A stretch of 35,695 nt of DNA from a virus. The stretch covers positions 1 through 35,695 of IMG/VR virus record IMGVR_UViG_3300021389_000068. One strand, 5' to 3'. Position numbers and translations under genes: made by a program. Under the pieces are notes generated by a model. It was not told the DNA's origin. It ran no database searches and saw only the letters and a program-made list of their open reading frames with translations. Positions 8,701 to 33,805 of the stretch are shown here, piece after piece (position 1 is the stretch's first letter; each line of letters begins with the position of its first letter).

Positions 8701-11568
8701 ATTGACATATCTTCTGGTGAAATATCTGGAGAAGATGCTACTGCATCAAACAAAGGTATAGCTTCTTTTAGTAGTGATCATTTTGATGTATCATCAGGTG
8801 CAGTTACAATCAAAGCAGATGGTATTGATGATACTCATATCGACTTTGGAACAGGCACAAATCAAGTAAGTACAGCTGATATTCCAGAACAAACTAATCT
8901 TTATTACACAGTGGCAAGAGCAGATTCTGCAGCAAGAAGTGCTTTAATAGGAATCGATGCTGGTGGTGATGGAAGCTTCTCATATGATTCTGCTACTGGT
9001 ATATTTACATACACAGGACCAAATGCAAGTGAAGTAAGAGCACACTTTGCGGGTGGTCACGGTATCGATTTAGCAGATGGTAATATTTCAGTTGATTCAT
9101 CAGAAATAAGAGGTTTATTCTCTGCTGGTGGAGATTTAACATATAACTCAGGAACAGGACAATTTACCTTTGATGTTGAATCAGTTTATACAAAAGAAAA
9201 CTTTGATAGTGATTATTTCTTTGCAAAAGATTCTGCAAATACTGCGGTTGAACGAAATCAACATACAGCAGTAACAAAAGAATTTGCTGTAACAGTTGCA
9301 ACACAAACTGCTGATCATGTTTATAATGGTCAAGGTAGTACTAATAAATACGTAATTGACGGCACATATTCTCCAATAATTCAATTACAAATTGGAAGAA
9401 CATATCAGTTTAACTTAAGTTCAAGTGATATGTCAAGTCATCCATTTAGATTCTACTATGATGCAGCAAAAACTACACAATACACTACCGGTGTATCAAC
9501 TGCAGCAACATATGCAAGAATCACAGTAACGGAGGCTACACCTCCAGTACTACATTATCAATGCTCTGCTCACGGGTACATGGGTCATGCACTCGTAATT
9601 GGAACACGCAACTTAACTGGATTTACTACATCAAACTTAACTGAAGGAAGTAATCTTTATTATACTGATGCAAGAGTTGCAAGTTATCTTGCAGCTGGTG
9701 AAGGTATCGATGTATCAGGTGGTACTATATCAGGTGAAGATGCTACATCATCTAATAAAGGTATCGCATCTTTTAGTAGTGATCACTTTGATGTCTCATC
9801 AGGAGCAGTAACACTTAAAGCTGATGGAATAGATGATACACATATCGATTTTGGTACAGGTACAAACCAAGTAAGTACCGCAGATATTCCTGAACAAACT
9901 AATCTCTATTATACAAATGCAAGAGTACAAGCAATAAGTATCGATTCTGCAGAAGCAATTGCTCTTATCGATTCTGCATATGTACAAGCAAGACAATCAC
10001 CGGGAACTGATTCTGCTGCAACAATAACACTTATGAATGCTAATGGAATACAAGCACCTGATGGAGGAGCTGCAGGAGGTTTAGCTAAATTATCAGTCGG
10101 TAATGATAGTGATTTAAAAATATTCCATACTGGAAGTCATAGTGTAATTCAAGATGCTGGAACAGGTTCTTTACAACTTCAGACAAATAACTTAACAGTT
10201 CAAAATGCAGCAGGTACTGAAAGTCAAATTACAGCATTATCAGGCGGTGCAGTATCATTATTCTTTAATAATCTTGCAAGATTAGCAACAACAGATTCTG
10301 GCGTAAATGTAACAGGTGAAATATCTGCAGACTCCGCAAAATTTACAAGATTAACTGCTGCTGGATTATTATTTCCAACATCTGATGGTTTGAATAATCA
10401 TGTAATTAGAACAGATGGTAGTGGTAACTTATCATTTGCTTCTGTAACTGCATTAAGTGGAAATATCGATTCTGCTGCAGTTATACAATTAATTGATTCT
10501 GCTTACATTCAACTTAGACAATCGGGTGGTGCAATCACCGTACAAGAAGAAGGATCTTCTTTATCAACCGCCGCAACAACGTTAAACTTTGTAGGTACCA
10601 GTGTAACTGCAACAGGATCTGGCGCAACAAAAACTATCACAATATCATCTGGTACTGATTCTTCTGCAACACAAGCAATGATAGATTCATCAATTGGATT
10701 TCAAGTTGATTCAGCTTATATTCAATTAAGACAATCATCTGTTGGTAGCGGAGGTGGTACTACTGGAACTATTAACAGTGTATCAACAAGTAGTTTCTCT
10801 GGCAATAATTCAACTAAAGTATTTACATTAACAGATACTCCGGCTGATTCTGATGATGCATTTGTATTTGTCAATGGTCTATTACAACACACAAATACAT
10901 ATAGCATATCAGGAAGTACATTAACACTTGATTCTGCACCCGATTCATCTTCTGAAATTGAAGTTCGAACTCATCAGTTACATTCTACTAACTTAATATT
11001 AAGAGATTATAAACCTTATCTCTACACATTAGGTGCGTTATCGGATTCTGTGAGTGGTGCTGATTCATCTGGAACAACATTGGCATATGATGTCGGTAAA
11101 GTAGAAGTATACTTAAACGGCGCAAGACTTGCAACTGGAAAAGATTTTACTGCAACTGATGGAACATCGATTGTATTTGATTCAGCTGTAAGTACAGGAA
11201 GTATTGTAGAAGTTGTATCACTCGCTAAAGCAACAACTGTAGAAATAAATGGAATAAGAGCAATTGATTCTGATTTAACTTCAACAGATTCAGGTCAAGT
11301 TATTCATACATTTGCAGCCGCAAGTTTTAGAACAATGAAATATATTGCACAACTCGAACATGATGCAAGTAGTAGTTATCACGCAGAAGAAATATTATTA
11401 ACACATAATGGATCAACTGTAGCCATGACGACATACGGACAAGTATTACTCGATTCAACACTTGGTACTTTTGATGCGGATATAAATAGTGGTAATGTAA
11501 GGTTAAAACTTAAACCAACAAAAACAAATGTAAGTTTTAAACTTAGAGAAATAAGGACACCTGCATAA
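5749..11568 (+). CDS. Giant repetitive tail fibre with cupredoxin-like domain
   Basis: This 1939-residue protein starts at GTG (5749), with GAGGT eight bases upstream. An ATG at 5742 in another frame closes after five codons. Residues 101-125 (DSSFDLGDSAKKFRDLYLSG) form a common fibre repeat. About 310-1100 is built from DAGGDGSF and TYTGPSASEVRAH repeats, interrupted near 726-743 by GTQTTINSTTVSINDKNI. A 121-residue unit with IDDTHIDFGTG and EQTNLYYT recurs with a 363-nt period. Residues about 1180-1285 resemble a cupredoxin (His1231, Cys1272, His1275, Met1278). VQEEGSSLSTAATTLNFVG starts near 1598, followed by two VNG-type beta modules and a C-terminal KYIAQLEHD domain. These modules are familiar from marine T4-like phage fibres, so a role in host adsorption is likely. 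Confidence 0.88.
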   Translation: MSIKVTVGQQTFIKKIVLGTPVTTARETLSIDEFTDFDVSTKSDGQILVFDSSEAAFKNFTFDVGQGLAREYSPGNDKLIIAIDSDKTPVVTGLTTKGHIVPTLDSSFDLGDSAKKFRDLYLSGSTIHLGGINLKDSGGDFSVKDSTGTAVNIDLAGSIQQIRGYFSSGGDLSYDSTSGRFEFDVEQVYTKSNFDSDLGSALDGGVGIAYDSATDTIRIDSAELEANFKQDIRGYFSAGGDLTYNSGSGQFTFDVEQVYTRDNFESDLGDALAGGTGIAYDSASDTINIDSSELSAYFRQDIRSYISAVDAGGDGSFTYNNVTGLITYTGPSPTEVRAHLNVTDAGGDGSFTYDSATGKFTYTGPSASEVRAHFSGGDGIGYNNGTGVIRLDSAELLSLYRQTVRGMFSAGGDLTYNSGTGEFTFDVEQVYTKANFDSDLGDANTGQLPEGTNLYYLKSRVDSDIDSAFDANSTTNLSEGTNLYYTDTRADSAARSALLGIDAGGDGSFSYDSATGKFTYTGPSASETRAHFTGGTGIAITSGDVKIDSSELTSLYRQTIRGYLNTVDAGGDGSFAYDSATGQFTYTGPNASEVRAHFTGGSGIAITSGDIKIDSAELTSLFRQQIRGFITVTDAGGDGSLAYNNSTGILTYTGPSASEVRAHFSGTNGITYNSGTGEIRAPQPLDSSANPTFNQLRGPANFVIDPAAIGDNTGTVQILGNLQVEGTQTTINSTTVSINDKNIVLADSAGNAAAADGAGITINGAGATITYAATGDKFVFNKPFQGSFLGFDSDFNAKSTSDLSEGTNLYYTTARADSAARSSLVAVDAGGDGSFGYDSATGIFTYTGPSASEVRAHITAGEGIDISSGEISGEDATTSNKGIASFNTEHFSVSSGAVSIKADGIDDTHIDFGTGSNQVSTADIPEQTNLYYTEARADSAARSALVAVDAGGDGSFGYDSATGIFTYTGPSASEVRAHITAGEGIDISSGEISGEDATASNKGIASFSSDHFDVSSGAVTIKADGIDDTHIDFGTGTNQVSTADIPEQTNLYYTVARADSAARSALIGIDAGGDGSFSYDSATGIFTYTGPNASEVRAHFAGGHGIDLADGNISVDSSEIRGLFSAGGDLTYNSGTGQFTFDVESVYTKENFDSDYFFAKDSANTAVERNQHTAVTKEFAVTVATQTADHVYNGQGSTNKYVIDGTYSPIIQLQIGRTYQFNLSSSDMSSHPFRFYYDAAKTTQYTTGVSTAATYARITVTEATPPVLHYQCSAHGYMGHALVIGTRNLTGFTTSNLTEGSNLYYTDARVASYLAAGEGIDVSGGTISGEDATSSNKGIASFSSDHFDVSSGAVTLKADGIDDTHIDFGTGTNQVSTADIPEQTNLYYTNARVQAISIDSAEAIALIDSAYVQARQSPGTDSAATITLMNANGIQAPDGGAAGGLAKLSVGNDSDLKIFHTGSHSVIQDAGTGSLQLQTNNLTVQNAAGTESQITALSGGAVSLFFNNLARLATTDSGVNVTGEISADSAKFTRLTAAGLLFPTSDGLNNHVIRTDGSGNLSFASVTALSGNIDSAAVIQLIDSAYIQLRQSGGAITVQEEGSSLSTAATTLNFVGTSVTATGSGATKTITISSGTDSSATQAMIDSSIGFQVDSAYIQLRQSSVGSGGGTTGTINSVSTSSFSGNNSTKVFTLTDTPADSDDAFVFVNGLLQHTNTYSISGSTLTLDSAPDSSSEIEVRTHQLHSTNLILRDYKPYLYTLGALSDSVSGADSSGTTLAYDVGKVEVYLNGARLATGKDFTATDGTSIVFDSAVSTGSIVEVVSLAKATTVEINGIRAIDSDLTSTDSGQVIHTFAAASFRTMKYIAQLEHDASSSYHAEEILLTHNGSTVAMTTYGQVLLDSTLGTFDADINSGNVRLKLKPTKTNVSFKLREIRTPA
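8506..9231 (+). repeat. 363-nt tandem coding repeats inside the giant fibre
   Basis: The motif that encodes STADIPEQTNLYYT begins at about 8506 and again at about 8869, exactly 363 nt (121 codons) later, with most of the sequence between them conserved. A further copy at about 9874 follows the cupredoxin-like segment, and a partial one lies upstream near 8150. Synonymous differences between copies show the duplication is not very recent. Confidence 0.7.
11481..11488 (+). promoter_or_regulatory. Possible internal late promoter
   Basis: TATAAATAG lies inside the 3' end of the giant fibre gene, encoding part of ADINSG, and 79 bases before the next gene's ATG at 11568. It has the same trailing G as the intergenic late promoters, so it could start the fibre array. 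In such AT-rich DNA a chance match inside a gene is quite possible. Confidence 0.35.
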
Positions 11569-11954
11569 TGGCAACGAAAATTCAAGCATTCAACTTACAT
11601 ACAAATGTTGATACACATGTAAAAGGTTTGATAGATTCTGATTATATTCAATTTAGACAAACTGCGGGTACAGATTCTGCCGCAACTCAGTCTATGATTG
11701 ATTCAGCTATTGGATTTCAAGTTGACTCTGCATACATAGCTCTACGACAAGATGCTGCAGACTCAGCCAGTATAAATACAATTATAACAACAACTACAAT
11801 TACAGGAAAGATTGCAGCAGATTTGAGAACAAATCCAAAAAATTTATCGAGAAGCCACATTATCGATTCAAATAGTAATGGATTATTAGTAGGTCCATTT
11901 AATGTAGACTCAGGTGTGACAATAACAGTTAACGGGACATTGATGGTAGTATGA
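11568..11954 (+). CDS. Short fibre protein, DSA-repeat stalk and AGP-type C-terminus
   Basis: The 128-residue protein begins MATKIQAFNLHTNVDTHV. Its middle (MIDSAIGFQVDSAYIALRQ) closely copies a segment of the giant fibre just upstream (MIDSSIGFQVDSAYIQLRQ), so the two genes share an ancestral piece. It ends with the recurring C-terminal module seen seven times in the window, here LLVGPFNVDSGVTITVNGT followed by LMVV. It overlaps the giant fibre by one base (TAATG) and the next gene as ATGA. A virion fibre or fibre-cap component is likely. No enzymatic motif is present. Confidence 0.75.
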   Translation: MATKIQAFNLHTNVDTHVKGLIDSDYIQFRQTAGTDSAATQSMIDSAIGFQVDSAYIALRQDAADSASINTIITTTTITGKIAADLRTNPKNLSRSHIIDSNSNGLLVGPFNVDSGVTITVNGTLMVV

Positions 11955-12469
11955 GTGATTTAAAAGTAAATACAGTAAAGACTGACGCTATTACAAATCA
12001 AGCAGGTTCGTTTAGCATTGCAACAATTGCAATGACTAATACACCTGCATTTCAAGCAAGGAATCTAAATGCTTTTCAATTTTCTGATAATACAGATACT
12101 AAAGTAACTGGATTTACTGAAGACTTCGACACAGATAATAACTTTGCATCAGATAGGTTTACTCCTACCACGGCAGGTAAATATTTTGTGAATATTACAG
12201 GAAGCATACAAAGCACTACTAATTACGATATGTATAATGGTAATATCAGTATTTATAAAAATGGCTCAAGGCTATTAAAAACAAGTTCACAAGGACATTC
12301 TAGTTCTAAGTCTCATAGATATGGTCTTAGTCTTTCCCTAGTAGTAGACATGAATGGTAGTTCTGACTATTTAGAAATGTATGTTTATCTTAATACTGTA
12401 ACTAATGGTGATGCTAGATTTGAAGCAGACACAATATCATTTGGTGCATATAAGTTGATAGGAGTTTAG
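11951..12469 (+). CDS. Fibre protein with C1q/TNF-like head
   Basis: The protein has 172 residues. The N-terminal tag MSDLKVNTVKTDAI is one version of the tag that recurs across the array. The head has the C1q-like pattern: FQARNLNAFQF, then FTPTTAGKYFVNITGSI, a KNGS turn, MNGSSDYLEMYVY, and a final FGAYKLIGV. C1q/TNF-like jelly rolls form trimers and serve as receptor-binding tips in several phage fibres. The start overlaps the previous stop as ATGA. Trimeric fibre-tip function is inferred from family resemblance. Confidence 0.75.
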   Translation: MSDLKVNTVKTDAITNQAGSFSIATIAMTNTPAFQARNLNAFQFSDNTDTKVTGFTEDFDTDNNFASDRFTPTTAGKYFVNITGSIQSTTNYDMYNGNISIYKNGSRLLKTSSQGHSSSKSHRYGLSLSLVVDMNGSSDYLEMYVYLNTVTNGDARFEADTISFGAYKLIGV

Positions 12470-12486
12470 AATGAATTGTAAACTAA

Positions 12487-12536: not shown

Positions 12537-13697
12537 ATGACGAGTACACTTGGAATAAAAAAGATACAGTATCCAAACGGAACTAATTCTATTACGATTG
12601 ATAGTAGTGGAAGTGCAGCTATTACTACGGCTAATATTACTACGGCTGCAATTACTACGGCTAATGTCACGAACGCAACCGCGACCGGTACGATAACAAC
12701 TCCGTCGATAAACGGCGGTCAGGTCGGTGGACGAAGGAATATGATTATCAATGGCGCAATGCAAGTGGCACAGAGAGGTACGAGTTCAACTGGTGTAGGT
12801 GCTGCAGATAATTATTTTACTCTAGATAGATGGTACTGTGATACAAATTTAAATTCAGCTGGTCGTTTAACAATGACACAAACTGCAATCTCAGACTTAC
12901 CCGGATTTCAAAATTGTTTAAAATTTGCTTGTACTACAGCGGACACTTCAATAGCAGCTGCAGAAAGATTTAGGTTAGAATATAAAATGGAAGGTCAAGA
13001 TGCACAAGGTTTAGCAAAAGGAACTTCAAGTGCAAAACCAGTTACCGTTTCTTTTTATGTAAAAGGACATGACTCTGCAACATATACAGTTGGTTTATAT
13101 GAGGGAACTACTGGTAGAAAAATTGGAGCAACTTTTCCAGTCACAACTTCTTGGGTAAGACAGACTGTAACATTTCCAGGCGATACTACTGGAGTTATTC
13201 CAAATAATAATACTGCACAATTAATGTTAAGATTTTATTTACATGGGGGTTCTAATTATACAAGCGGTACATTAGGAACATCATGGAATGCTGATGGAAA
13301 CAGTACACAAATTAGTAGTAGTGGTAATTCAATATTTGAGAGTACTTCTGCTACGTTCTTTCTTACTGGAGTTCAAATGGAAGTAGGCTCTCAAGCAACA
13401 GAATTTGAGCATAGAGGATTTGGGGAAGAACTAGCTTTGTGTCAGAGGTATTTTTATAAACATAATATAAATAGTAGTTCTGGTCCAAGAGGCTGTCAAT
13501 ATCATAATAGTTACAAAATGATACACGATTTTTTTCCAGTTACTATGAGAGCTTTTCCAACAGCTACAGCAACATTTAATGCAAGTTTTTCCTCTAATAG
13601 TCTGAGTACAAATGTTGGTAAGTTTTATGTACTTTCATCTTATGATGCTGCTCATAATTATTTTATGGAATCGGGACAATACGATGCGGAGCTTTAA
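12537..13697 (+). CDS. Fibre protein, GGRRN/GEELALCQRYF family, copy 1
   Basis: The 386-residue protein starts with a tag (MTSTLGIKKIQYPNGTN), followed by a 5-residue stalk repeat (ITTAN, ITTAA, ITTAN). The signature INGGQVGGRRNMIINGAMQV leads into a carbohydrate-binding-like beta domain (VTVSFYVKGH, TTSWVRQTVTFPGD) and closes with VGSQATEFEHRGFGEELALC and QRYF, then a variable tip. Two more copies lie at 15646 and 17473; tags and tips differ while the signatures are nearly identical even in DNA. The family is common in marine phage fibres and probably binds the host surface. A mini-protein gene of 58 residues follows after two bases. Confidence 0.82.
   Translation: MTSTLGIKKIQYPNGTNSITIDSSGSAAITTANITTAAITTANVTNATATGTITTPSINGGQVGGRRNMIINGAMQVAQRGTSSTGVGAADNYFTLDRWYCDTNLNSAGRLTMTQTAISDLPGFQNCLKFACTTADTSIAAAERFRLEYKMEGQDAQGLAKGTSSAKPVTVSFYVKGHDSATYTVGLYEGTTGRKIGATFPVTTSWVRQTVTFPGDTTGVIPNNNTAQLMLRFYLHGGSNYTSGTLGTSWNADGNSTQISSSGNSIFESTSATFFLTGVQMEVGSQATEFEHRGFGEELALCQRYFYKHNINSSSGPRGCQYHNSYKMIHDFFPVTMRAFPTATATFNASFSSNSLSTNVGKFYVLSSYDAAHNYFMESGQYDAEL
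12621..12665 (+). repeat. Three 15-nt stalk repeats
   Basis: ATTACTACGGCT recurs at 12621, 12636 and 12651 with a 15-nt period and encodes ITTAN-ITTAA-ITTAN. Such a short in-frame tandem repeat can change fibre stalk length by slippage without breaking the frame. Confidence 0.75.
13381..13450 (+). repeat. GEELALCQRY DNA repeat, copy 1 of 3
   Basis: About 70 bases encoding VGSQATEFEHRGFGEELALC are nearly identical at DNA level to 16333-16402 and 18493-18560. The conservation includes third codon positions, unlike the flanking head sequence. This points to recent duplication or ongoing gene conversion among the three fibre genes. Confidence 0.7.
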
Positions 13698-13699
13698 CG

Positions 13700-13876
13700 A
13701 TGTCATATACTTATAAATCACTTGGGAACGATCCCGTAGAATTAGGTGGCAAGCCTGTAGAATATATTTTAAGAAAAGAAGATGGAGCTTTTATTCCAAT
13801 TAGTGAAGATAACAGAGATTATCAAGAGTACTTAAAATGGGTATCTAAAGGTAATACAATAGAGGAAGCCGATTAA
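13700..13876 (+). CDS. Fibre-linked mini-protein, GNTIEEAD family, copy 1
   Basis: This 58-residue protein runs from MSYTYKSLGNDPVELGG to WVSKGNTIEEAD. The C-terminal DYQEYLKWVSKGNTIEEAD matches a second mini-protein at 16732 (DYQAIQEWVAEGNTIEEAD). Both follow directly behind a GGRRN-type fibre gene, here with a 2-base gap, and this one ends in a TAATG overlap with the next gene. Small proteins ending this way are common beside marine phage fibre genes. A dedicated fibre-assembly chaperone or a small fibre partner is a reasonable guess, but no function is established. Confidence 0.75.
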   Translation: MSYTYKSLGNDPVELGGKPVEYILRKEDGAFIPISEDNRDYQEYLKWVSKGNTIEEAD

Positions 13877-14103
13877 TGAGTACAATAGGTGTAAAAGCAA
13901 TACAATATCCTGATGGCGATTCTGCTTCACCTGCAGTTTTAGTTACAGGTGGTAAGGGTATCAAACAGAGTTTTGCAATAAATTATGCAAACTTAGGAGT
14001 AAACGTCACTATTGATTCTGCAGAACGTGCGATGGTGGTAGGTCCATATAGTATTGATTCAGATGTAAACTTAAAAATTAACGGAGTGTTAACGATAGTA
14101 TGA
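13876..14103 (+). CDS. Short fibre protein with AGP-type C-terminal module
   Basis: The 75-residue protein has the tag MSTIGVKAIQYPDGDSASP, a short linker, and the recurring C-terminal module AMVVGPYSIDSDVNLKINGV ending LTIV. It therefore consists of little more than an anchor tag and one terminal module. It overlaps the upstream mini-protein by one base (TAATG) and the next gene as ATGA. The codons for INGV contain GGAG at 14083-14086, 13 bases before the next ATG, a rather long spacing. It is likely a structural fibre or spacer subunit. Confidence 0.75.
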   Translation: MSTIGVKAIQYPDGDSASPAVLVTGGKGIKQSFAINYANLGVNVTIDSAERAMVVGPYSIDSDVNLKINGVLTIV

Positions 14104-14606
14104 CCAGTATTTTAGGAACACAGAGTATACAACATCCGAATGGAACAGCTGCAGCAACTATTGATGCTACAGGCAGAATTTTACAGCCAGCTAAACCATC
14201 ATTCTTTGCACATGGAACTACTGGAACGTGGCAATCAGTTAGTAGTGGCGGTATTGTTACTGAGCTAGATGCAACAGATCATAATATAGGTGGTCATTAC
14301 GATACTTCAAACGGAAGATTTACAGTGCCGATTACAGGTGTATATTGTTTTCAGTTTAACTTATATATTAAACAAACTTCAAATTCAGCATCATGGTCAA
14401 TTTATCATAGTGGAAGTGAATTTAGAGAAAGTGGATTTCCACTAATTAGAGTATTTAGAAATGATGGCGATGCAAATGATGAAACAATAGGTACTACTTG
14501 GACATATCAGTACTCACAAGGAACTTATATAGAAATTCGAGCGAGTGGTACAACATCTGAGTATGTTCCAATAAGAAGTTATTTTAGTGGATTTTTAGTA
14601 GGATAA
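14100..14606 (+). CDS. Fibre protein with C1q/TNF-like head ending FLVG
   Basis: The protein has 168 residues. The tag MTSILGTQSIQHPNGTAAAT is followed by PAKPSFFAHG, HYDTSNGRFTVPITGVYCFQ and a final YFSGFLVG. The order (aromatic entry strand, FTVPxTGVY core strand, hydrophobic terminal strand) is the C1q-like pattern, shared with the head of the gene at 31074, whose C-terminus is FQGFLVG. It is expected to trimerise and act as a fibre tip. The start overlaps the preceding gene as ATGA. Confidence 0.78.
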   Translation: MTSILGTQSIQHPNGTAAATIDATGRILQPAKPSFFAHGTTGTWQSVSSGGIVTELDATDHNIGGHYDTSNGRFTVPITGVYCFQFNLYIKQTSNSASWSIYHSGSEFRESGFPLIRVFRNDGDANDETIGTTWTYQYSQGTYIEIRASGTTSEYVPIRSYFSGFLVG

Positions 14607-14609
14607 AAA

Positions 14610-15137
14610 ATGGTAAGCATATTAAAAACAGATAAAATTCAGGCAAGCCACGGTAGCACTATTGAGATACCGAATGGAAATGTATTACAAGCACCAGGTC
14701 ATGTCTTGCAAGTTACTGCGGGAGGCACGACTTCTAGGATAACTACTACATCTACAAGTTATGCTGACATAGGTGTATCAGCTAGTATAACTCCTAGTAG
14801 TACTTCTTCAAAAGTTTTAATAATCGTTACGGGAGTAATGGGTAATAGTGCCGCTGGCAATAGAACTACAATAATTCTTAAAAGAGAAGACACTGAAATA
14901 GGTAGTGGTACTGGAAGTTCTAATAATGAATTTAGTTCAATGCTACAAGAAGCAAATTCAGGTTATCATTATTCAGGATTTGGCCAAACGTTTTTAGATT
15001 CTCCATCTACGACATCGGCTACTACTTATAAAATATTTATGAAAGCCGCGAATGCTACTGCAGCTTTAGGTGGAAGAGCTGATAACAACGATATAGGAGT
15101 TCCTACTCGAATAGTTCTAATGGAGATCGCACAATGA
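14610..15137 (+). CDS. Fibre protein, SSKVLI/MEIAQ family
   Basis: The 175-residue protein begins MVSILKTDKIQASHGSTIEI and APGHVLQV, then shows the family core TSTSYADIGVSASITPSSTS followed by SKVLIIV. DSPSTTSATTYKIFMKA follows, and the C-terminus is RIVLMEIAQ. Seven array genes share this plan. The codons for MEIAQ contain GGAG (15122-15125), eight bases before the ATG of the next gene, so this C-terminus also serves as the next ribosome site. The stop and next start overlap as ATGA. Likely a beta-rich fibre tip. Confidence 0.8.
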   Translation: MVSILKTDKIQASHGSTIEIPNGNVLQAPGHVLQVTAGGTTSRITTTSTSYADIGVSASITPSSTSSKVLIIVTGVMGNSAAGNRTTIILKREDTEIGSGTGSSNNEFSSMLQEANSGYHYSGFGQTFLDSPSTTSATTYKIFMKAANATAALGGRADNNDIGVPTRIVLMEIAQ

Positions 15138-16915: not shown

Positions 16916-16923
16916 TATAAATA
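16916..16923 (+). promoter_or_regulatory. T4-type late promoter, unit 2
   Basis: TATAAATAG lies in the 17-base gap between genes. The next ATG (16929) is five bases downstream, so initiation at the usual T4 late distance would give a leaderless message. Read-through transcripts would have only AAAGG (16911-16915) as a weak ribosome site. Confidence 0.75.
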
Positions 16924-17126: not shown

Positions 17127-17129
17127 CAA

Positions 17130-20836: not shown

Positions 20837-20844
20837 TATAAATA
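20837..20844 (+). promoter_or_regulatory. T4-type late promoter, unit 3
   Basis: TATAAATAG in the 42-base gap between 20832 and 20875, with a normal leader containing GGGGAGAG before the ATG. It heads the unit that starts with the second copy of the small leading-protein pair. Confidence 0.8.
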
Positions 20845-21087: not shown

Positions 21088-21090
21088 GAC

Positions 21091-27490: not shown

Positions 27491-28068
27491 TGCCGATACA
27501 AAGAGCAAAACCAAGATTAGTTGACTTAGATCAAACACCGTTAACCTCGGTAACGTCATCAAACTTACCGGCTGGGAGTTGTTTACAAGTAGTTCACCGA
27601 AACTATAATCCTTTAATATCATCGACGACACAAACTTTTACTGATATTACAAATTTTAATGTTACGATAACTCCTACTTCTGCATCGAATAAAGTTTTTT
27701 TAATGTTAGCCGTAAGTTGGAGTAACAATGGCCACTGCAGTCTTAGAATAACTCGTAAAATTGGAAGTGCATCTGCCGCTGTCCTTGCTAATAGTGTTGG
27801 AGATCAAGAGCTAGGTAGTAATAGAACCGCTGCTACCTTACATGGTTATCGCTATACTACAAATAATTTACATTATGATCAAAGGCATGACAGTATTAAT
27901 ATTTTAGATACGCCAAATACAACTGAAGCTGTTATATACCAACTTCAGGGAGCAAATCCTCACAATTCAGCTTATAGTTTTGTTATCAATCGTCAGGCAG
28001 GTGATGCTGATCAAAACTATTCTGCACGAGTAAGAAGTTCGTTTTCAGCAATGGAGATTAAAGGATAA
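27490..28068 (+). CDS. Fibre protein, MEIA family variant ending MEIKG
   Basis: The protein has 192 residues. The opening MPIQRAKPRLVDLDQTPLTS differs from the usual tag. The core is family-typical: GSCLQVVHRNYNPLISSTTQ, VTITPTSASNKVFLMLAVSW, LDTPNTTEAVIYQLQGANP, ending FSAMEIKG. It is the last gene of unit 3. The GGAG in its MEI codons has no coupled gene after it; instead a tandem late-promoter-like sequence (28067-28083) overlaps the stop codon. Its altered last residues fit with loss of the coupling constraint. Confidence 0.78.
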   Translation: MPIQRAKPRLVDLDQTPLTSVTSSNLPAGSCLQVVHRNYNPLISSTTQTFTDITNFNVTITPTSASNKVFLMLAVSWSNNGHCSLRITRKIGSASAAVLANSVGDQELGSNRTAATLHGYRYTTNNLHYDQRHDSINILDTPNTTEAVIYQLQGANPHNSAYSFVINRQAGDADQNYSARVRSSFSAMEIKG

Positions 28069-28083
28069 TAAATAGTATAAATA
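28067..28083 (+). promoter_or_regulatory. T4-type late promoter, unit 4, with tandem core
   Basis: TATAAATAG at 28076 is immediately preceded by AATAAATAG at 28067, a 9-base direct repeat overlapping the previous gene's TAA. The downstream copy matches the late consensus; the upstream one fits the relaxed NATAAATA form used in some marine T4-like phages. The ATG at 28107 has AGGAG upstream. Confidence 0.75.
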
Positions 28084-28106: not shown

Positions 28107-28481
28107 ATGAAATATGATATCGCAGCCGCGCTCCAAGCACTTAAACCGGGTGCAGAGTGGGTACTTAGAGGTAGCGAATGGTCTGGATTAGAATGGTTAG
28201 ACAAGAGTCAAACTGCTCCATCTGAGGCTGAAGTTACTGCACAAATTAAAACTATGGATGATGCCGAAGCGGCAAGACTCTTAAGAGTTGAGAGAGACGC
28301 TAAGCTCGCAGCACTTGACTGGGAAGTCGTAAAAGCTTACTCAAATGGTGTGGCAGTAGATACTAAACTTAAGACTTATATGCAAGCATTAAGAGACTTA
28401 CCCGCTAGTGCAAGTCCTACAACAGACGCAGCTGGTGAGTTAGTAACTTCATCTGTAACTTGGCCAACAAGAGCTAGTTAA
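28107..28481 (+). CDS. Tail fibre assembly chaperone-like protein
   Basis: The 124-residue protein begins MKYDIAAALQALKPGAEWVL with a SEWSGLEW segment. A charged helix (EAARLLRVERDAKLAALDWE) leads to KTYMQALRDLPASAS and ends VTWPTRAS. The order R-x-x-x-D-x-x-L-x-x-x-D-W followed by Y-x-QALRDLP and a final WP matches the phage tail assembly chaperone family (Phage_tail_APC, DUF4376-like). These act during folding or attachment of fibres and are usually not in the virion. It opens unit 4. A relative, 30032, lies 2 kb downstream. Confidence 0.8.
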   Translation: MKYDIAAALQALKPGAEWVLRGSEWSGLEWLDKSQTAPSEAEVTAQIKTMDDAEAARLLRVERDAKLAALDWEVVKAYSNGVAVDTKLKTYMQALRDLPASASPTTDAAGELVTSSVTWPTRAS

Positions 28482-28687
28482 TGACGAGGGCAAGAGAGAC
28501 TGCTAAATCTGGATTTCTTACGGAAAAGACATTTCCGACAGGATCGAATATTGTCTTTCGCTTGAATGATAATAACCTGTCAACGAGTGTCACGATAGAT
28601 TCCGATAAGAATGCTATGGTTGCTGGTCCTCTTTCAATTGACAGTGGTCAGACGTTAACATTACAAGGTAACTTAAGTATAGTATAA
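28481..28687 (+). CDS. Short fibre protein with AGP-type C-terminal module
   Basis: The protein has 68 residues. MTRARETAKSGFLTEKTFPT carries the MTRARE opening seen in many marine phage fibre proteins, a short middle (NIVFRLNDNNLSTSVTIDSD), then AMVAGPLSIDSGQTLTLQGN ending LSIV. It is among the smallest members of the seven-gene set with this C-terminus. It is joined on both sides by TAATG overlaps. Likely a structural spacer or cap. Confidence 0.76.
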   Translation: MTRARETAKSGFLTEKTFPTGSNIVFRLNDNNLSTSVTIDSDKNAMVAGPLSIDSGQTLTLQGNLSIV

Positions 28688-29352
28688 TGGCAAGTATTTT
28701 AAAAGTAGATAAGATAAGAGGAACCGGACTCGACAGTGATACTATAACACTTGACGGTAGTGGTAACATTACGATTCCAAAGAACGTTACTTTCAGTGGC
28801 ACAACTACAGGTGCTGGTTCAGTAACCTTATTAAAGACAGTTACCCCGTCAACCGTTTCAAGTGTAGACTTTGTTCATGGCAGCGGTGGAGTTGTATTAG
28901 ACAGTACTTATAAAAGATATGAAATACAGATAGATACTTTAGTTCCTGCTTCAGCGGGGCCATACTTTGGTATTTTCTTAAGTCAAAATAGCGGAACCTC
29001 ATATGGAGGAAACGATGCGTACATGTGTGTAAACTGGAGGTATTATACTAATAGTAGTACAACAGGTACGCAGGTTCAACATAATCCAAATTTTTGTGGT
29101 TTTCATGACGCACAGGTAAGTTCTACTGCTAGTAACGGTGGAGTCAGTGGAAAGGTCGTGTTTTCCGGAGCAGGAACTGCACATAGACAAGTTTTTAAAT
29201 CAGATTTTTATACGTATGGACATAACAGCTATAATATTTTTTCAGAATGCGTTGGTAGTTTAAAAAACAGTAATGCCGTCAACGGAGTTAGAGTGTCATT
29301 TAACAGCGGCAATATAGCCAGCGGAACAGTTAAATTATTTGGATATAAGTAA
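28687..29352 (+). CDS. Fibre protein, YKRYEIQID head family, copy 1
   Basis: The protein has 221 residues. The tag MASILKVDKIRGTGLDSDTI with GSGNITIPKNVTFSGTT is followed by the head LLKTVTPSTVSSVDFVHGSG, VLDSTYKRYEIQIDTLVPAS, DAYMCVNWRYYTNSS and NIASGTVKLFGYK. The next gene carries the same plan (NNYRIVINTMRPSN, NVADGAVTLYGLK), so these are tandem paralogues. The head type (DxxYxxYxxxxxxxxP) is frequent in marine phage fibres. Junctions on both sides are TAATG. Receptor binding is inferred. Confidence 0.79.
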   Translation: MASILKVDKIRGTGLDSDTITLDGSGNITIPKNVTFSGTTTGAGSVTLLKTVTPSTVSSVDFVHGSGGVVLDSTYKRYEIQIDTLVPASAGPYFGIFLSQNSGTSYGGNDAYMCVNWRYYTNSSTTGTQVQHNPNFCGFHDAQVSSTASNGGVSGKVVFSGAGTAHRQVFKSDFYTYGHNSYNIFSECVGSLKNSNAVNGVRVSFNSGNIASGTVKLFGYK

Positions 29353-30020
29353 TGAGTAGATTAATAGTATCAAATATCGAAACTCAGAACATTAAGTTTG
29401 ATTCTGACACCACGGCTTTTACTATAGGATCTGGAGGAAACATATCCGCGGGTTCACACGGTCTAAATCAAGGTTATAAGTTTTTAGCACACACTAAAAT
29501 TGATATTGGAGGTTCTGCCGCGGCTAGCATAGGATTTGATGATAGTGTGGTAACGTCTGCTTTTAATAATTACAGAATAGTTATCAATACGATGAGGCCA
29601 TCAAATAACGGAGTACAAGCTATTTTAAGTTGTAGTTTAAATAATGGAAGTAGTACTATGGCCAACAACCAAGGACAAAAAACTTATTTTAGAATTTCTG
29701 ATGGCGCAACTGGTAGTGAAAGTGATAACGGTGCAAACACACACGAGCTTGCTACCAATGTAGGTAACGATCAATATGATGGAATTACTGGATACGTTGA
29801 CATATATAATACTGGAAATAATTCAATAAACCTGCAAAGAACGATGGTTATACAATCAAGATTAACTGGTCGTGAAGACAGCGCTTGGTATAAGTGGGAC
29901 GGAGCTAGTTACGTGGCACCTGGAACAAGAACTGCAATGATTAACAATTTTTATTTAAGGTTTGATGCTGGTAATGTAGCAGATGGTGCTGTAACATTAT
30001 ACGGATTAAAAGAAAGTTAA
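29352..30020 (+). CDS. Fibre protein, YKRYEIQID head family, copy 2
   Basis: The protein has 222 residues. The tag MSRLIVSNIETQNIKFDSDT continues with TAFTIGSGGNISAGSHG. The head includes FLAHTKIDIGGSAAASIGFD, FNNYRIVINTMRPSNNGVQ, SINLQRTMVIQSRLTGREDS and NVADGAVTLYGLKES. Its tag is close to that of 32133 (NIEVTNIKYDSDTT), although the two heads belong to different families, which again shows reassortment. A 12-base gap with AGGAG precedes the next gene. Confidence 0.79.
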   Translation: MSRLIVSNIETQNIKFDSDTTAFTIGSGGNISAGSHGLNQGYKFLAHTKIDIGGSAAASIGFDDSVVTSAFNNYRIVINTMRPSNNGVQAILSCSLNNGSSTMANNQGQKTYFRISDGATGSESDNGANTHELATNVGNDQYDGITGYVDIYNTGNNSINLQRTMVIQSRLTGREDSAWYKWDGASYVAPGTRTAMINNFYLRFDAGNVADGAVTLYGLKES

Positions 30021-30031
30021 AGGAGAAAAAA

Positions 30032-30322
30032 GTGCCAAGATTTAAGATGGTAAACGGAGAAAGAATTCAGTTTACGGCAGAAGAAGAAACAGCGAGAGAT
30101 GCTGAAGAGAAAACATGGGCTGATGCTGCACCTGCACGAAGAATGGTCAATTTAAGAGAACAACGTAATCGACTCTTAGCTGAGACTGATTGGATGGGAA
30201 ACTCTGATATTACTATGACAGACGCATGGAAGACATACAGACAGGCACTTAGAGATATAACAAAAACAACGCCAGCAGATGATGCGTTAAGTAATATTAC
30301 ATGGCCAACAAAACCGGAGTAA
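30032..30322 (+). CDS. Tail assembly chaperone-like protein (Phage_tail_APC type)
   Basis: The 96-residue protein uses a GTG start (30032) with AGGAG about 7 bases upstream. The N-terminus MPRFKMVNGERIQFTAEEET is followed by a helical charged part and REQRNRLLAETDWMGNSDIT, AWKTYRQALRDITKTTPAD and a final ITWPTKPE. This is the typical Phage_tail_APC layout (RNxLLAxTDW, YRQALRDI, WP). The family is thought to assist fibre assembly. It sits between two fibre genes inside unit 4 and resembles 28107 in the same motifs. Confidence 0.83.
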   Translation: MPRFKMVNGERIQFTAEEETARDAEEKTWADAAPARRMVNLREQRNRLLAETDWMGNSDITMTDAWKTYRQALRDITKTTPADDALSNITWPTKPE

Positions 30323-30325
30323 ACT

Positions 30326-30907
30326 GTGGTAAGTACACTTAAAGTAAATAAGATTCAGATACCTAATAGTGATAGTGACGTATTATCATTTAATTCGAGT
30401 ACAGGCAATATGACTATAGCTACAGGTAAGACTTTGTCAGGAGCTGCAGGATCTATTATAGCACCGGGTCAGGTAATACAAACGGTTGTTAGCCAGTTTA
30501 ACACTCCCACATCTATTGCTACAGCAAGTTTTACATCTACTGGTCATTCAGTAACTATTACTCCAAAATTTGCCACTAGTAAAATACTACTTACTTGCTT
30601 TGGTGGTCATGCTTGGAATGGAAATAATTCAAATAAAGTTAGATGCTTTACGATATATAGAGGTTCTACAGATTTAGGTCATGGTACTGGTGGTTTATGG
30701 ACGCATTACTGTAACGCTTATAATGCACAACCGCACGCAGGTTCTGTTTTAGATTCACCAAATACAACAAGCTCTACAACTTATACAACTTATTTTAGAG
30801 GTCAAGACACCTCAACACAATGGTATACTGTTGATATTGGTGGTGGCGGAGCCGGCTCTAGCAACGTTCCAACAGTAACTTTAACTGCAATGGAGATCGC
30901 ACAATAA
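30326..30907 (+). CDS. Fibre protein, SSKVLI/MEIAQ family
   Basis: The start is GTG (30326), with GGAG at 30316-30319. The 193 residues contain the tag MVSTLKVNKIQIPNSDSDVL, the shared linker LSGAAGSIIAPGQVIQ, the core HSVTITPKFATSKILLTCFG, LDSPNTTSSTTYTTYFRG and the C-terminus VTLTAMEIAQ. GGAG in the MEI codons (30892-30895) is 11 bases before the ATG of the 56-residue gene that follows, and the junction is TAATG. A typical MEIA-family fibre head. Confidence 0.8.
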   Translation: MVSTLKVNKIQIPNSDSDVLSFNSSTGNMTIATGKTLSGAAGSIIAPGQVIQTVVSQFNTPTSIATASFTSTGHSVTITPKFATSKILLTCFGGHAWNGNNSNKVRCFTIYRGSTDLGHGTGGLWTHYCNAYNAQPHAGSVLDSPNTTSSTTYTTYFRGQDTSTQWYTVDIGGGGAGSSNVPTVTLTAMEIAQ

Positions 30908-31077
30908 TGGCATTAAGTAGAATAGGAAAAAGTATAGGATTTAAAATTACACTGAAGACTGTAACTGCAAATACAACTATCGAGGCTACAGAGAACGCGA
31001 TGATAGCAGGACCGATTACAGTTACGAGTGGAGTAACACTGACAGTGAACAGTGGAGGAAGGTTAGTAGTCGTATGA
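30907..31077 (+). CDS. Minimal fibre protein with AGP-type C-terminus
   Basis: The 56-residue protein begins MALSRIGKSIGFKITLKTVT and ends AMIAGPITVTSGVTLTVNSG followed by GRLVVV. It is the smallest of seven genes with this C-terminal module, and almost nothing else is present. It is tightly packed: TAATG overlap with the MEIAQ gene upstream and ATGA overlap with the C1q-like gene downstream, with GGAGG in its own last codons (about 31053) ahead of the next start. Such conserved packing supports that it is a real gene. Confidence 0.75.
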   Translation: MALSRIGKSIGFKITLKTVTANTTIEATENAMIAGPITVTSGVTLTVNSGGRLVVV

Positions 31078-31673
31078 GTACTTTAGGCATTGAAAATATA
31101 GAACATACTAATGGTACTAGTGTAGCAACTGTTGCTAGTGATGGAAAAGTAAGTTTTCCTGCAGGTTTTGGCAATACGCCTTCAACGCCAAATCGACCGG
31201 CCTTCATTGCAACCAGACATGGATCAGACCAAACTGGAATAACTGGAAGTGCCAGTTCTCCGACTACGATGATTTTCACAGATACAAGTGCTCCATTTGG
31301 CATTAATACTGGTAATCATTACAACACAAGTACTGGAATATTTACAGCACCAGTAGCTGGCATTTATTTCTTCTGCTTTAGTGTATTAATTAATAGCGTA
31401 GACAATAGTGATGATCAAATACATATATCAATGGTATATCAGTTTGCAAGTGGTAGTATGGCCGGTCAAACTCAACTTCACTTTTTTTCTAGAACTAATG
31501 GTGAGGCAGCAAATGGAACTTATGGTTATGGTGGATATTTACCTTGGAATGGGTCAATAATGTTTAATATGTTGGAGAATGATACTGTTAAAATGGCCGT
31601 TGGTAGTAATGGTAATATTGGTCTTTATAATGATCGATCTCAAAATCGTTTTCAAGGATTTTTAGTAGGATAA
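31074..31673 (+). CDS. Fibre protein with C1q/TNF-like head ending FLVG
   Basis: The protein has 199 residues. The tag MSTLGIENIEHTNGTSVATV resembles that of 14100 (LGTQSIQHPNGTAAAT), and the head does too: RPAFIATRHGSDQTG, HYNTSTGIFTAPVAGIYFFC, and the final strand NRFQGFLVG. GIFTAPVAGIYFF is a clear C1q-like core strand. The two genes are therefore full-length paralogues separated by 17 kb. Expected to form a trimeric receptor-binding tip. Confidence 0.82.
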   Translation: MSTLGIENIEHTNGTSVATVASDGKVSFPAGFGNTPSTPNRPAFIATRHGSDQTGITGSASSPTTMIFTDTSAPFGINTGNHYNTSTGIFTAPVAGIYFFCFSVLINSVDNSDDQIHISMVYQFASGSMAGQTQLHFFSRTNGEAANGTYGYGGYLPWNGSIMFNMLENDTVKMAVGSNGNIGLYNDRSQNRFQGFLVG

Positions 31674-31677
31674 AGAT

Positions 31678-32136
31678 ATGCCGAGTCAAATAAAAGTAGA
31701 TGAGATTAAAAACGTTGCAGGTCAGTATGAGATCAAGACTGATACTTTCAAAGGACAGACGACTGCGGGTTCTATAACAGTACAAGGTGAAGGTACTGCT
31801 ACAACAAATTTACAACAGGGACTATCAAAGTGTTGGGTAAGATGGAACGGGACTGGCACCGCTGCAAATAATGATAGTTTAGGAGTTTCTAGCATTACTG
31901 ATCATAGTACTGGTACACAATCGCAGACCTTTACAAATGCTTTTAATAATACAGATTTTAGTATTTTAACAGGAATAGGAGAATTAGGTGGAGGTGGTAA
32001 TAGAGGCATAGGCATCCAGATTGCACCAACAACAACAACTACAAAATTTTATACTTTTTATTTTCCCGGTAGTGGAGGTACTACTGTAGATGATGTTGAT
32101 TTAAATTCTGCAGCTTGGCAAGGAGACCTCGCATGA
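31678..32136 (+). CDS. Fibre protein, GDLA family, first of a tandem triplet
   Basis: The protein has 152 residues. The tag MPSQIKVDEIKNVAGQYEIK is followed by FKGQTTAGSITVQGEGTATT, NLQQGLSKCWVRWNGTGTAA, NNDSLGVSSITDHSTG and the C-terminus AAWQGDLA. Three GDLA-family genes lie in tandem here (31678, 32133, 32564) with similar entries and different tips. GGAG at 32122-32125 in the GDLA codons is seven bases before the next ATG, junction ATGA. Probable fibre subunit. Confidence 0.8.
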   Translation: MPSQIKVDEIKNVAGQYEIKTDTFKGQTTAGSITVQGEGTATTNLQQGLSKCWVRWNGTGTAANNDSLGVSSITDHSTGTQSQTFTNAFNNTDFSILTGIGELGGGGNRGIGIQIAPTTTTTKFYTFYFPGSGGTTVDDVDLNSAAWQGDLA

Positions 32137-32567
32137 GTACAATAGTAGGAACAAATATTGAAGTTACAAATATCAAGTATGACTCTGATACGACCTCTAT
32201 GATTATATCGAGTGCTGGTCAGGTTTCTGTAAAAAGTGAAGGACAAGCTAACACAACGAATCTCCAGCAAGGTTTAACAAAGGCATGGTTTACAAGCAAT
32301 AGCTCAATGGCTCTCACAGATTCATTTAATCTTGCATCTGTTACAGATGTCTCTGCTGGACAACTAGGAGTAACTTTTTCAACGGCTTTTGGCAATACAA
32401 CGTATTCTTCAACTGGAAGTTGTAGTACAAATGCAAATATTAATGTTGTAACAAATTGGAATGAAACACTTACTACAACTTTAACTAGATTCGGAATGTT
32501 GCAAGTAAACGGCCAAGCATATACAGATGGTGGGTTAAGCGGCCATATTTGTGGAGATTTAGCATGA
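32133..32567 (+). CDS. Fibre protein, GDLA family, second of triplet
   Basis: The frame reaches an ATG at 32115, but the start at 32133 gives the standard tag (MSTIVGTNIEVTNIKYDSDT), an ATGA junction and a GGAG seven bases before it. The 144-residue protein continues SVKSEGQANTTNLQQGLTKA, FTSNSSMALTDSFNLASVTD and ends GGLSGHICGDLA. GGAG at 32553-32556 again lies seven bases before the next ATG. Presumed fibre subunit; the tag is shared with 29352. Confidence 0.8.
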   Translation: MSTIVGTNIEVTNIKYDSDTTSMIISSAGQVSVKSEGQANTTNLQQGLTKAWFTSNSSMALTDSFNLASVTDVSAGQLGVTFSTAFGNTTYSSTGSCSTNANINVVTNWNETLTTTLTRFGMLQVNGQAYTDGGLSGHICGDLA

Positions 32568-32959
32568 GTACATTAGTTATAGATACTATACAAGGTAAGA
32601 CAGCTGCCGGTTCTATTAACGTTCGTGGTGAAGGTTCGAATAACACAAACTTACAACAAGGTTTAATCAAAGCTTGGGGAAACTTTGATGGAAGTGGTAC
32701 TGTAGGAATTAACGATAGTTTTAATATGGATGCTCTTACGGACAATGGCACAGGTAATTATACTATAAACATAACAAATGATTTTGCAAACGCTCACGGT
32801 TGTATGAGTGGTTACAGTATAATGGACGGATTGTGTTATGGAGATGTTAATAACGTTTCTAGTACAGGAAGTTTTAGAATGAGAGTTGTCGTAGGTTCTA
32901 GTAATAGTTTAATGGATCCAGACGAGTTTCATACACAAATGGCAGGAGATTTAGCATGA
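32564..32959 (+). CDS. Fibre protein, GDLA family, third of triplet
   Basis: The frame is open to an ATG at 32549, but 32564 is preferred (MSTLVIDTIQGKTAAGSINV, ATGA junction, well-spaced GGAG). The 131 residues include NTNLQQGLIKAWGNFDGSGT, SFNMDALTDNGTGNYTINIT and the C-terminus FHTQMAGDLA. It is the most compact family member and close to the canonical motif. GGAG at 32945-32948 is seven bases before the ATG of the next, unrelated gene, so the coupling element works beyond the fibre family. Confidence 0.8.
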   Translation: MSTLVIDTIQGKTAAGSINVRGEGSNNTNLQQGLIKAWGNFDGSGTVGINDSFNMDALTDNGTGNYTINITNDFANAHGCMSGYSIMDGLCYGDVNNVSSTGSFRMRVVVGSSNSLMDPDEFHTQMAGDLA

Positions 32960-33426
32960 CAATTGAAACACCTGAATTTCAGGGAACGCATTTATGGGAG
33001 CGATTACACTGGGCAAAAGAAAAACTTGAGCCTATACAATCTGATTACAGAGTTGTTTGGGAAGATCCAAACGAACCTGATGAACCTGCAAAGGTTACAA
33101 TACCAGATCCTAACTGGCTGGCATGTGCAATGCAAGGTGGAATACTACCACCAGTTCAATCTTATTGGGAACTGAAGAAAGATGAAGCACAACCTGATTT
33201 TAAGAAACATACGAGAGGTTATCTACTACATAATACGCAACCGGTTGATAAGATGACTGAAGAAGAAGCAATAGAATATTTAATTATGAAAGACATACCA
33301 GAACACGTATGGAAAGATTATGATAAGTCTAATCGTAAGAGATTAGTAATTTGTAAAAAACAAAATCTCCCTGGCCATAGAACATGGCGCAATTCATGGA
33401 AGATAAATCAAGAGCTAGTAGCATAA
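32956..33426 (+). CDS. Conserved phage protein of the pre-neck region
   Basis: The 156-residue protein begins MTIETPEFQGTHLWERLHWA and has VVWEDPNEPDEPAKVTIPDP, NWLACAMQGGILPPVQSYWE, TEEEAIEYLIMKDIPEHVW and RTWRNSWKINQELVA. NWLACAxxGGILPPV and the final FRNxW-like segment are patterns I associate with marine T4-like phage proteins of unknown function near fibre genes. It is not built from fibre modules; the Trp-rich, charged composition suggests a soluble accessory factor. The start is an ATGA junction with the GDLA gene. Confidence 0.75.
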   Translation: MTIETPEFQGTHLWERLHWAKEKLEPIQSDYRVVWEDPNEPDEPAKVTIPDPNWLACAMQGGILPPVQSYWELKKDEAQPDFKKHTRGYLLHNTQPVDKMTEEEAIEYLIMKDIPEHVWKDYDKSNRKRLVICKKQNLPGHRTWRNSWKINQELVA

Positions 33427-33436
33427 GGAGATAAGA

Positions 33437-33805
33437 ATGACTACAATGATTCAAGACAAAAATGGTGTAATTGCTGCAACACCATCGTCAGTACCAGACA
33501 GGCATTTTCGAAATGCGTGGATGTTCGATAGTGCACAGACTGCTATCACTGAAGACATTACAGCGGCAAAGGTAATATTTAAAGATAAGATAAGAGAAGT
33601 AAGAGGACCATTACTTACTGCAGAAGATGTTGTATATATGAAAGCTTTAGAAGCGAACGATTCAGATGCAAAAGTAGCAAGTGTTGCAAAGAAAGTTGCA
33701 CTAAGAAATGCACCTGCGGGATCAGCTATTACAAATGCAACTACTATTACTGCTCTGAAAGATGCATGGGATAGCGATGTTTTAGGTGCAAGTCCTTATA
33801 AATAG
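33437..33805 (+). CDS. Conserved small phage protein (HFRNAW family)
   Basis: The 122-residue protein includes MTTMIQDKNGVIAATPSSVP, DRHFRNAWMFDSAQTAITED, AKVIFKDKIREVRGPLLTAE and DVVYMKALEANDSDAKVASV. The order HFRNAW - AK.IxxDxIRxxRxPLL - D.xYMxALE is one I recognise from many marine phages beside fibre and tail genes. It probably assists fibre or tail assembly, but the function is not known. Its last two sense codons and stop (Tyr-Lys-stop, TATAAATAG) are the late promoter of the neck operon, so coding and promoter use are superimposed. Confidence 0.77.
   Translation: MTTMIQDKNGVIAATPSSVPDRHFRNAWMFDSAQTAITEDITAAKVIFKDKIREVRGPLLTAEDVVYMKALEANDSDAKVASVAKKVALRNAPAGSAITNATTITALKDAWDSDVLGASPYK
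33797..33804 (+). promoter_or_regulatory. T4-type late promoter for neck genes
   Basis: TATAAATAG overlaps the end of the preceding gene as its last codons TAT AAA TAG. The ATG of gp13 is 20 bases downstream, with AAGGA as ribosome site. It is expected to drive gp13, gp14 and following tail and neck genes. Confidence 0.78.

Follow-up and report, generated by a model that had tools for sequence, protein, structure and literature searches.

Ordered slots with exchangeable heads in a tandem array of short fibre-like genes upstream of the neck genes of a T4-like virus

Why would a virus carry dozens of short fibre-like genes in a single run, and is such a run a loose accumulation or an ordered system? 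The question is raised by an IMG/VR record of a marine T4-like virus, metagenomic in origin (IMGVR_UViG_3300021389_000068), analyzed over its whole length of 35,695 bases, which is referred to here as the window. An array of 43 tandem plus-strand genes (11568–33805; genes are named by their start positions) lies downstream of a gene for a repetitive fibre of 1,939 amino acids (aa; 5749–11568) and adjoins the T4-type neck genes gp13 (33825) and gp14 (34582), which places it upstream of the neck, in the structural region. Its open reading frames (ORFs) are uninterrupted and its gene junctions are tight, and it includes very short ORFs of 58–59 aa at 13700 and 16732 and of 56 aa at 30907. An all-against-all BLASTP comparison grouped 33 of the 43 genes with significant E-values into the MEIA, GDLA and AGP families (seven genes each), the C1q-like (four), GGRRN (three), YKR and MANT (two each) families, and a single Gly-rich gene. 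These are the families, and the 43 consecutive genes, that a preliminary description had listed, except that its starts at 32115 and 32549 are replaced by 32133 and 32564, positions to which the related contigs align and at which the ATG follows a Shine-Dalgarno sequence. The ten genes outside the families encode two tail-assembly chaperones of family PF16778 (28107 and 30032), an XkdW-like protein (20506), the 58–59 aa paralogues 13700 and 16732, each of which follows a GGRRN gene, the short S-type proteins 16929 and 20875, and the products of 24897, 32956 and 33437.

We consider it likely that the array consists of about 24 address-tagged adhesin slots with swappable heads, the products of which are displayed together on the virion. 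Relatives for comparison were collected through gp13 homologues (69–92% identity) from viral contigs, then through the loci of anchor proteins and longer stretches of the same records, and ORFs in them were labelled with iterated profile hidden Markov models. The array is present in about 25 related marine contigs, and in most close gp13 relatives with enough upstream sequence the locus instead holds a few long fibres or other genes. A T4 portal is encoded in the array-bearing records G026, G031 and G032, the longest of which (123 kb) carries the array in one piece up to gp13. A megablast search of the array against cultivated phages gave no match.

The order of the anchors is conserved in about 20 array contigs. 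These anchors are seven AGP proteins (128, 75, 156, 184, 253–254, 68 and 56 aa), two pairs of a short S-type and a MANT protein, two PF16778 proteins and the 32956/33437 pair, with mean identities of 59–95%, and about 24 variable slots lie between them. For identity comparisons, the first 22 residues were taken as the tag and the last 70 as the head, and slots were assigned by position between anchors only (synteny), since slots assigned by tag are partly circular for tag identity. Tag identity was 0.70 within slots and 0.23 between slots, and was still 0.59 within slots where the head family differs, whereas heads of the same family showed an identity of 0.308 in the same slot and 0.288 in different slots. 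The head family changes between contigs in many slots: the tag MVSTLKVNKIQIPNSDSDV is joined to a MEIA head in the window and to a GDLA head in contigs L088, L113 and L203, MTGQINVNKIAARTGN to MEIA or GDLA heads, and MSTLGQKPATQHVS to GGRRN, MEIA or C1q heads as well as to heads outside these families. On trees of heads, 30 slot changes were counted for MEIA (minimum 11; 36.5 with shuffled labels) and 35 for GDLA (minimum 8; 42.9 with shuffled labels), whereas tag trees gave 12 (minimum 11) and 8 (minimum 8), a result that is partly built in because slots in those trees are tag-assigned. These counts indicate little slot memory in heads and nearly complete slot memory in tags. Tag and head trees thus disagree and related genomes vary strongly, the two comparisons that had been proposed as checks. 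The fibre repertoire of the preliminary description is real, but it is a conserved, ordered slot scaffold rather than a loose accumulation, and the tag that the description took to be shared by 29352 and 32133 proves to be two tags, which are alike but distinct and are each conserved in a slot of their own. Small accompanying proteins track the type of head, the 24897 family occurring with Gly-rich heads and the EAD protein (13700–13876 and 16732–16911) with GGRRN heads; they are exchanged along with the head, and may serve as its chaperones.

Heads are shared across slots as well as within them: among head pairs with at least 60% identity, 38 were from the same slot and 21 from different slots, the latter reaching 99% at the aa level. 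When eight cross-slot pairs were aligned as DNA, homology of 80–99.7% began within the linker or near it. The starting point was GGAGCTGCAGGATCT...CAGGTAATACAA or lay a few codons later in MEIA pairs, and was mostly the ACAACTAAT TTACAACAAGGG stretch in GDLA pairs. In seven of the eight the homology stopped 0–10 nucleotides (nt) short of the last base of the stop codon, whereas the remaining pair (L105 with L218) stays homologous farther downstream. In L105 (positions 1–2655), the block of slots v14–v17 (Table 1) is joined directly to the S20875 anchor, either as a chimera or as a real rearrangement through a shared MEIA head. Direct repeats in the window fall into five families, four at linkers or gene ends and one in GGRRN heads; repeats D3, D4 and D5 cover the MEIA linker and the ends of GDLA and MEIA genes. 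A diversity-generating retroelement was rejected as the source of variation: no PF00078 reverse transcriptase was found in the window and seven related records (one of 123 kb, two of them cultivated phages), the window and most of the records being fragments. The repeats appear unlike a template copy of such an element, and heads differ by whole-domain replacement. An invertible shufflon was likewise rejected, as the array holds no inverted repeats of at least 32 nt (shorter ones were not searched) and all 43 genes lie on one strand.

The ends of the heads also bear on how the next gene is translated. GDLA genes typically end in GGAGAYYTNGCATGA and MEIA genes in ATGGAGATYGCACAATGA, and the next ATG overlaps (ATGA) or abuts (TAATG) the stop codon. 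GGA encodes the terminal Gly of GDLA in 236 of 237 distinct genes, whereas it accounts for 37% of all Gly codons in the same genes and for 26 of 153 at the internal QQGL Gly; the Glu of MEIA is GAG in 65 of 66 genes with a start close by, against 12 of 22 without one (Fisher p = 1e-6, which overstates because related sequences are not independent draws, so that the argument is the contrast within the same genes). Because of this codon bias, the recurrent C-terminal signatures are not only protein motifs but in part a DNA-level ribosome-binding signal for the next slot. The GDLA genes of the cultivated phage HMO-2011 have the same ends. Such an embedded Shine-Dalgarno sequence represents selection on synonymous sites that would preserve polycistronic expression and, with it, the swappability of cassettes.

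TATAAATA is the core of T4 late promoters. It was found before the anchors S20875 in 11 of 11 contigs, APC124 in 11 of 15, gp13 in 10 of 14 and S16929 in 3 of 6, and before slot genes in none of 71 GDLA, none of 15 YKR and one of 89 MEIA cases. Its count over the whole window is not significant (10 against 6.2 expected), and the argument is carried by where it lies, in front of anchors in different contigs. No clear excess over shuffled expectation was seen for sigma-70-like promoters or for terminators. By analogy with T4, the motifs would act as promoters, and the array is probably divided into several late operons, each headed by an anchor.

From these observations the following mechanism is proposed. 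In the product of each short gene, a slot-specific tag of about 20–30 residues at the N-terminus would be followed by a linker and then by a receptor-binding head at the C-terminus. Through its tag the protein, probably trimeric, would attach to a single fixed site on an assembly of the tail fibre or baseplate, the components of which would be the giant fibre and the conserved AGP, MANT and short anchor proteins. The heads (TNF/C1q-like lectins, GDLA sandwiches, GGRRN, YKR and Gly-rich) would be interchangeable cassettes, exchanged between phages and between slots by recombination, with crossovers in or near the shared linker and at the gene end. A swapped head would keep the next slot translated, because the last MEIA or GDLA codons carry the next Shine-Dalgarno sequence and the next start overlaps or abuts the stop. 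Late promoters before anchors would transcribe the array as several late operons; all slots would therefore probably be made together, giving a virion with many different adhesins at once. Whether this extends to a combinatorial, addressable display appears to us an evenly balanced matter: one virion would then bear about two dozen different small lectins or adhesins, each held by its tag in its own docking site, with heads drawn from a pool common to slots, phages and partly morphotypes, and with cassette ends doubling as the ribosome-binding site of the next slot.

Structure predictions were made for one member each of the MEIA and GDLA head families. The MEIA protein 26511, predicted from an alignment that left out two cultivated-phage rows, is modelled as a jelly roll (predicted local distance difference test, pLDDT, 85.7) that is closest to the TNF-like lectin PLTL (9ib7; Z 14.8, 1.9 Å over 123 residues) and to Bc2L-C (Z 13.4); MEIA heads are thus predicted to be TNF/C1q-like lectin folds. 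The MEIA profile also matches the C-terminus of orf22 in PDB entry 9efk (E 7e-30); this chain has 658 residues and is present 18 times in the deposited structure. Pam3 gp24 provides a precedent for a trimeric myophage fibre that combines a TNF-like domain with a docking helix at the N-terminus (PMC9608196). The GDLA protein at 32549 (conserved start 32564) was predicted with a pLDDT of 77.5, and its four best matches are C-terminal domains of phage tailspikes or fibres (Z 5.6–6.9), a resemblance that is weak and suggestive only; a PDB sequence search with GDLA gave no match. PHROG matches of array proteins fall at the C-termini of long tail fibres, and the AGP proteins resemble such ends. Above Pfam cut-offs, only the chaperones, XkdW and the Gly-rich domain were recognized in the array, and no NCBIfam match was found among the array proteins tested.

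The same architecture might be explained otherwise. If only one or a few products were present in the virion, the rest could be a silent reservoir of heads donating by gene conversion, as in antigenic-variation loci. Hypervariable heads that move between slots are what such an archive would show, but it would not account for codon-level selection on ribosome-binding sites at nearly every MEIA and GDLA junction, for uninterrupted ORFs with tight junctions, for the conservation of anchors and tags throughout the slots without any one favoured expression site, or for late-promoter motifs spread along the array; we regard it as improbable. In another arrangement, unlikely in our view, the products would follow one another as segments of one or a few composite fibres; each tag would bind the protein before it, and only distal heads would be exposed. 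This would suit the strict gene order, the interspersed AGP proteins with their likeness to long-fibre ends, and the few long fibres that other close relatives hold at the same locus, yet heads are hypervariable in every slot including the middle ones, which is unexpected for buried segments, and tags keep their identity when a gene moves in L088. The nearness of the MEIA fold to bacterial TNF-like lectins and the presence at 1341–5416 of surface-modification genes, typical of the locus in relatives (PMC7029224), would be in keeping with products that act away from the virion, such as lectins that are secreted or proteins that block superinfection. This we hold to be very improbable, given that the array is flanked by a giant tail fibre and by neck genes and contains late-promoter motifs as well as tail-assembly chaperones, and that its homologues are tail-fibre C-termini, one of them in a solved structure deposited with 18 chains. 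It is barely credible that assembly chimeras and over-called ORFs produced the pattern: the sequences are metagenomic, shared linkers and heads could mislead assemblers, and L105 looks rearranged, but the same tag-head junctions recur in separate contigs (the window is identical to L116 over 6,140 nt, and L088/L132, L103/L218 and L224/L225 share junctions over 8–14 kb), and the cultivated phages HMO-2011 and Melnitz have the same gene types and the same embedded ends.

Several points weigh against the reading of the array as addressed slots filled together on the virion. The head trees retain some slot signal (30 changes against 36.5 shuffled, and 35 against 42.9). In L088, two whole genes, tag and head together, lie at other map positions: the intervals C96–A7 and A7–32956 contain extra GDLA genes with the tags of slots v16 and v15, so that whole genes can relocate with the tag kept, and tags and order are not perfectly tied. 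The best GDLA fold match is weak (Z 6.9, under 8; 3.0 Å over 91 residues; Foldseek E 0.03), and L105 may be a chimera. Finally, we infer tag docking, the filling of all slots in the particle and a host range set by the heads from homology, position and expression signals, and the activity of the promoter motifs from T4.

The features of the array are collected in Table 1. Upstream of it, five minus-strand genes between 885 and 5384 encode a radical SAM protein (weak NCBIfam maturase match), a protein with a glycosyltransferase match (4736), two mutually related 299-aa proteins and the product of 4132, the last three without a family match. The minus-strand block 1341–5416, with its glycosyltransferase and radical SAM matches, resembles the surface-modification genes of pelagimyophage recognition clusters.

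Table 1. Features of the array and its borders in the window (A, AGP anchor; v, variable slot)
Feature	Coordinates	Strand	Remarks
Giant repetitive tail fibre, 1,939 aa	5749..11568	+	Upstream border; homologues in other loci
Anchor A1 (AGP family)	11568..11954	+	92% mean identity between contigs
Slot v1	11951..12469	+	C1q-like head here, MEIA in relatives
Slot v2	12537..13697	+	GGRRN head here, C1q in relatives; phrog_4492 tail fibre C-terminus
EAD protein, 58 aa	13700..13876	+	Accompanies GGRRN heads
Anchor A2 (AGP)	13876..14103	+	
Slot v3	14100..14606	+	C1q-like head
Slot v4	14610..15137	+	MEIA head
Slot v5	15134..15649	+	GDLA head here, MEIA in relatives
Slot v6	15646..16722	+	GGRRN head
EAD protein, 59 aa	16732..16911	+	
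TATAAATA, T4-late-promoter-like motif	16916..16923	+	Before S16929 anchor in 3/6 contigs
Anchors, short S-type protein (16929) and MANT protein (17130)	16929..17471	+	
Slot v7	17473..18879	+	GGRRN head here; same tag with MEIA, C1q or unlabelled heads elsewhere
Slot v8	18882..19415	+	MEIA head
Anchor A3 (AGP)	19412..19882	+	
Slot v9	19891..20496	+	C1q head here, MEIA in relatives
XkdW-like accompanying protein	20506..20832	+	PF09636
TATAAATA, late-promoter-like motif	20837..20844	+	11/11 contigs
Anchors, short S-type protein (20875) and MANT protein	20875..21420	+	
Slot v10	21420..22013	+	MEIA head
Slot v11	22010..22507	+	GDLA head
Anchor A4 (AGP)	22507..23061	+	79% mean identity
Slot v12	23046..23579	+	MEIA head
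Slot v13	23576..24886	+	Gly-rich head here (PF21722); GGRRN, YKR or MEIA elsewhere
Accompanying protein of Gly-rich heads	24897..25304	+	phrog_7759
Anchor A5 (AGP, 253 aa)	25304..26065	+	80–95% identity in 13/14 loci, 57% in a partial one
Slot v14	26065..26514	+	GDLA head here, C1q or unlabelled elsewhere
Slot v15	26511..27041	+	MEIA head here, GDLA elsewhere; structure predicted
Slot v16	27038..27490	+	GDLA head
Slot v17	27490..28068	+	MEIA head
TATAAATA, late-promoter-like motif	28076..28083	+	11/15 contigs
Anchor, tail-assembly-chaperone-like protein	28107..28481	+	PF16778
Anchor A6 (AGP, 68 aa)	28481..28687	+	88% mean identity
Slot v18	28687..29352	+	YKR head here, MEIA elsewhere
Slot v19	29352..30020	+	YKR head
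Anchor, chaperone-like protein	30032..30322	+	PF16778
Slot v20	30326..30907	+	MEIA head here, GDLA elsewhere; same head in slot v15 of L033 and L109
Anchor A7 (AGP, 56 aa)	30907..31077	+	95% mean identity
Slot v21	31074..31673	+	C1q-like head
Slot v22	31678..32136	+	GDLA head
Slot v23	32133..32567	+	GDLA head; conserved start 32133
Slot v24	32564..32959	+	GDLA head; conserved start 32564; structure predicted
Conserved terminal pair 32956 and 33437	32956..33805	+	Common to podovirus HMO-2011
TATAAATA, late-promoter-like motif before gp13	33797..33804	+	10/14 contigs
gp13 neck protein	33825..34580	+	Downstream border

Phages with one or a few long fibres are already known to swap fibre heads. 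In the array, the layout of an entire hypervariable island can be read: addresses are fixed, heads can be interchanged, and the seams leave translation undisturbed. This would offer a way to read the host-recognition islands of oceanic phages, predicting which parts set host range and which form the scaffold, and a testable rule for phages of uncultured marine bacteria, in which the tag gives position and the head gives target. In the literature searched, which excluded subscription literature, neither ordered slots defined by tags and carrying exchangeable heads nor a head that contains the next gene's ribosome-binding site was found described.

Shorter versions of the array, with the same types of gene, are present in two cultivated phages. 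Puniceispirillum phage HMO-2011 (a SAR116 podovirus) and its relatives have MANT, AGP, GDLA, C1q and GGRRN genes around the 32956/33437 pair, with gene ends GGAGA...GCATGA or GCATAATG as in the array, but their array is shorter, lacks the 24-slot scaffold and belongs to a podovirus; a literature search for HMO-2011 virion proteomics found none. The pair, of which 32956 has 67% identity in HMO-2011 and belongs to no known family, follows GDLA genes both in T4-like arrays and in HMO-2011-type phages, and may be a dedicated assembly factor of GDLA heads. In L139, L143, L158, L174 and L189 the unit MANT-AGP-GDLA-GDLA-GDLA-32956-33437 occurs, followed in several by C1q or chaperone-like genes and by GGRRN with an EAD protein of 52–60 aa, and is apparently a portable mini-array outside T4-like phages. 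A 32956 homologue (51% identity) is also encoded in HQ332136 (Dunaliella viridis virus SI2); this record is labelled as an algal virus, but its host may be misassigned and the sequence that of a phage. In Methylophilales phage Melnitz (OM43, T4-like), a giant fibre and the neck enclose about 22 mostly short genes, among them members of the Gly-rich, GGRRN, MEIA and MANT families; its recognized heads, however, are fewer and its fibres longer, and another MEIA pair follows the neck genes. A recognition module with a chaperone is common to the morphologically distinct Alteromonas phages A5 and V22 (PMC10579305); their module is one fibre and its chaperone, whereas the phages compared here have a fragment of the array in common.

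Conserved N-terminal anchors, exchangeable C-terminal domains and several receptor-binding proteins per virion are also found in the branched systems of Klebsiella phages (PMC6872550), in RaK2 with its ten adsorption-complex proteins (PMC10253068) and in the tailspike complex of Ackermannviridae (PMC11414711). Their proteins are fewer and longer, many with depolymerase activity, whereas the array encodes many proteins of 130–200 aa in which no depolymerase domain was recognized, and its heads move between slots. Metaviromic islands of marine phages likewise combine variable C-terminal recognition domains with conserved N-termini and contain C1q and tail-fibre genes (PMC3909814), but with few fibre or C1q genes per phage rather than about 24 slots with cross-slot heads. 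The locus itself is the host recognition cluster of T4-like phages, known from pelagimyophages and cyanomyophages (PMC7029224), which in pelagic members is a hypervariable region upstream of the neck genes with tail fibres and glycosyltransferases, described in pelagimyophages as a large non-syntenic island in which surface-modification genes are typical. The place, the hypervariability between close relatives, the fibre genes and the glycosyltransferase matches are the same, so that the preliminary description's 'unusual' applies to the internal architecture and not to the location or hypervariability. In that architecture the array differs from the cluster as described: about 20 contigs are syntenic, with anchors, fixed slots, conserved tags and swapped heads that embed ribosome-binding sites; other close relatives, however, fill the locus differently.

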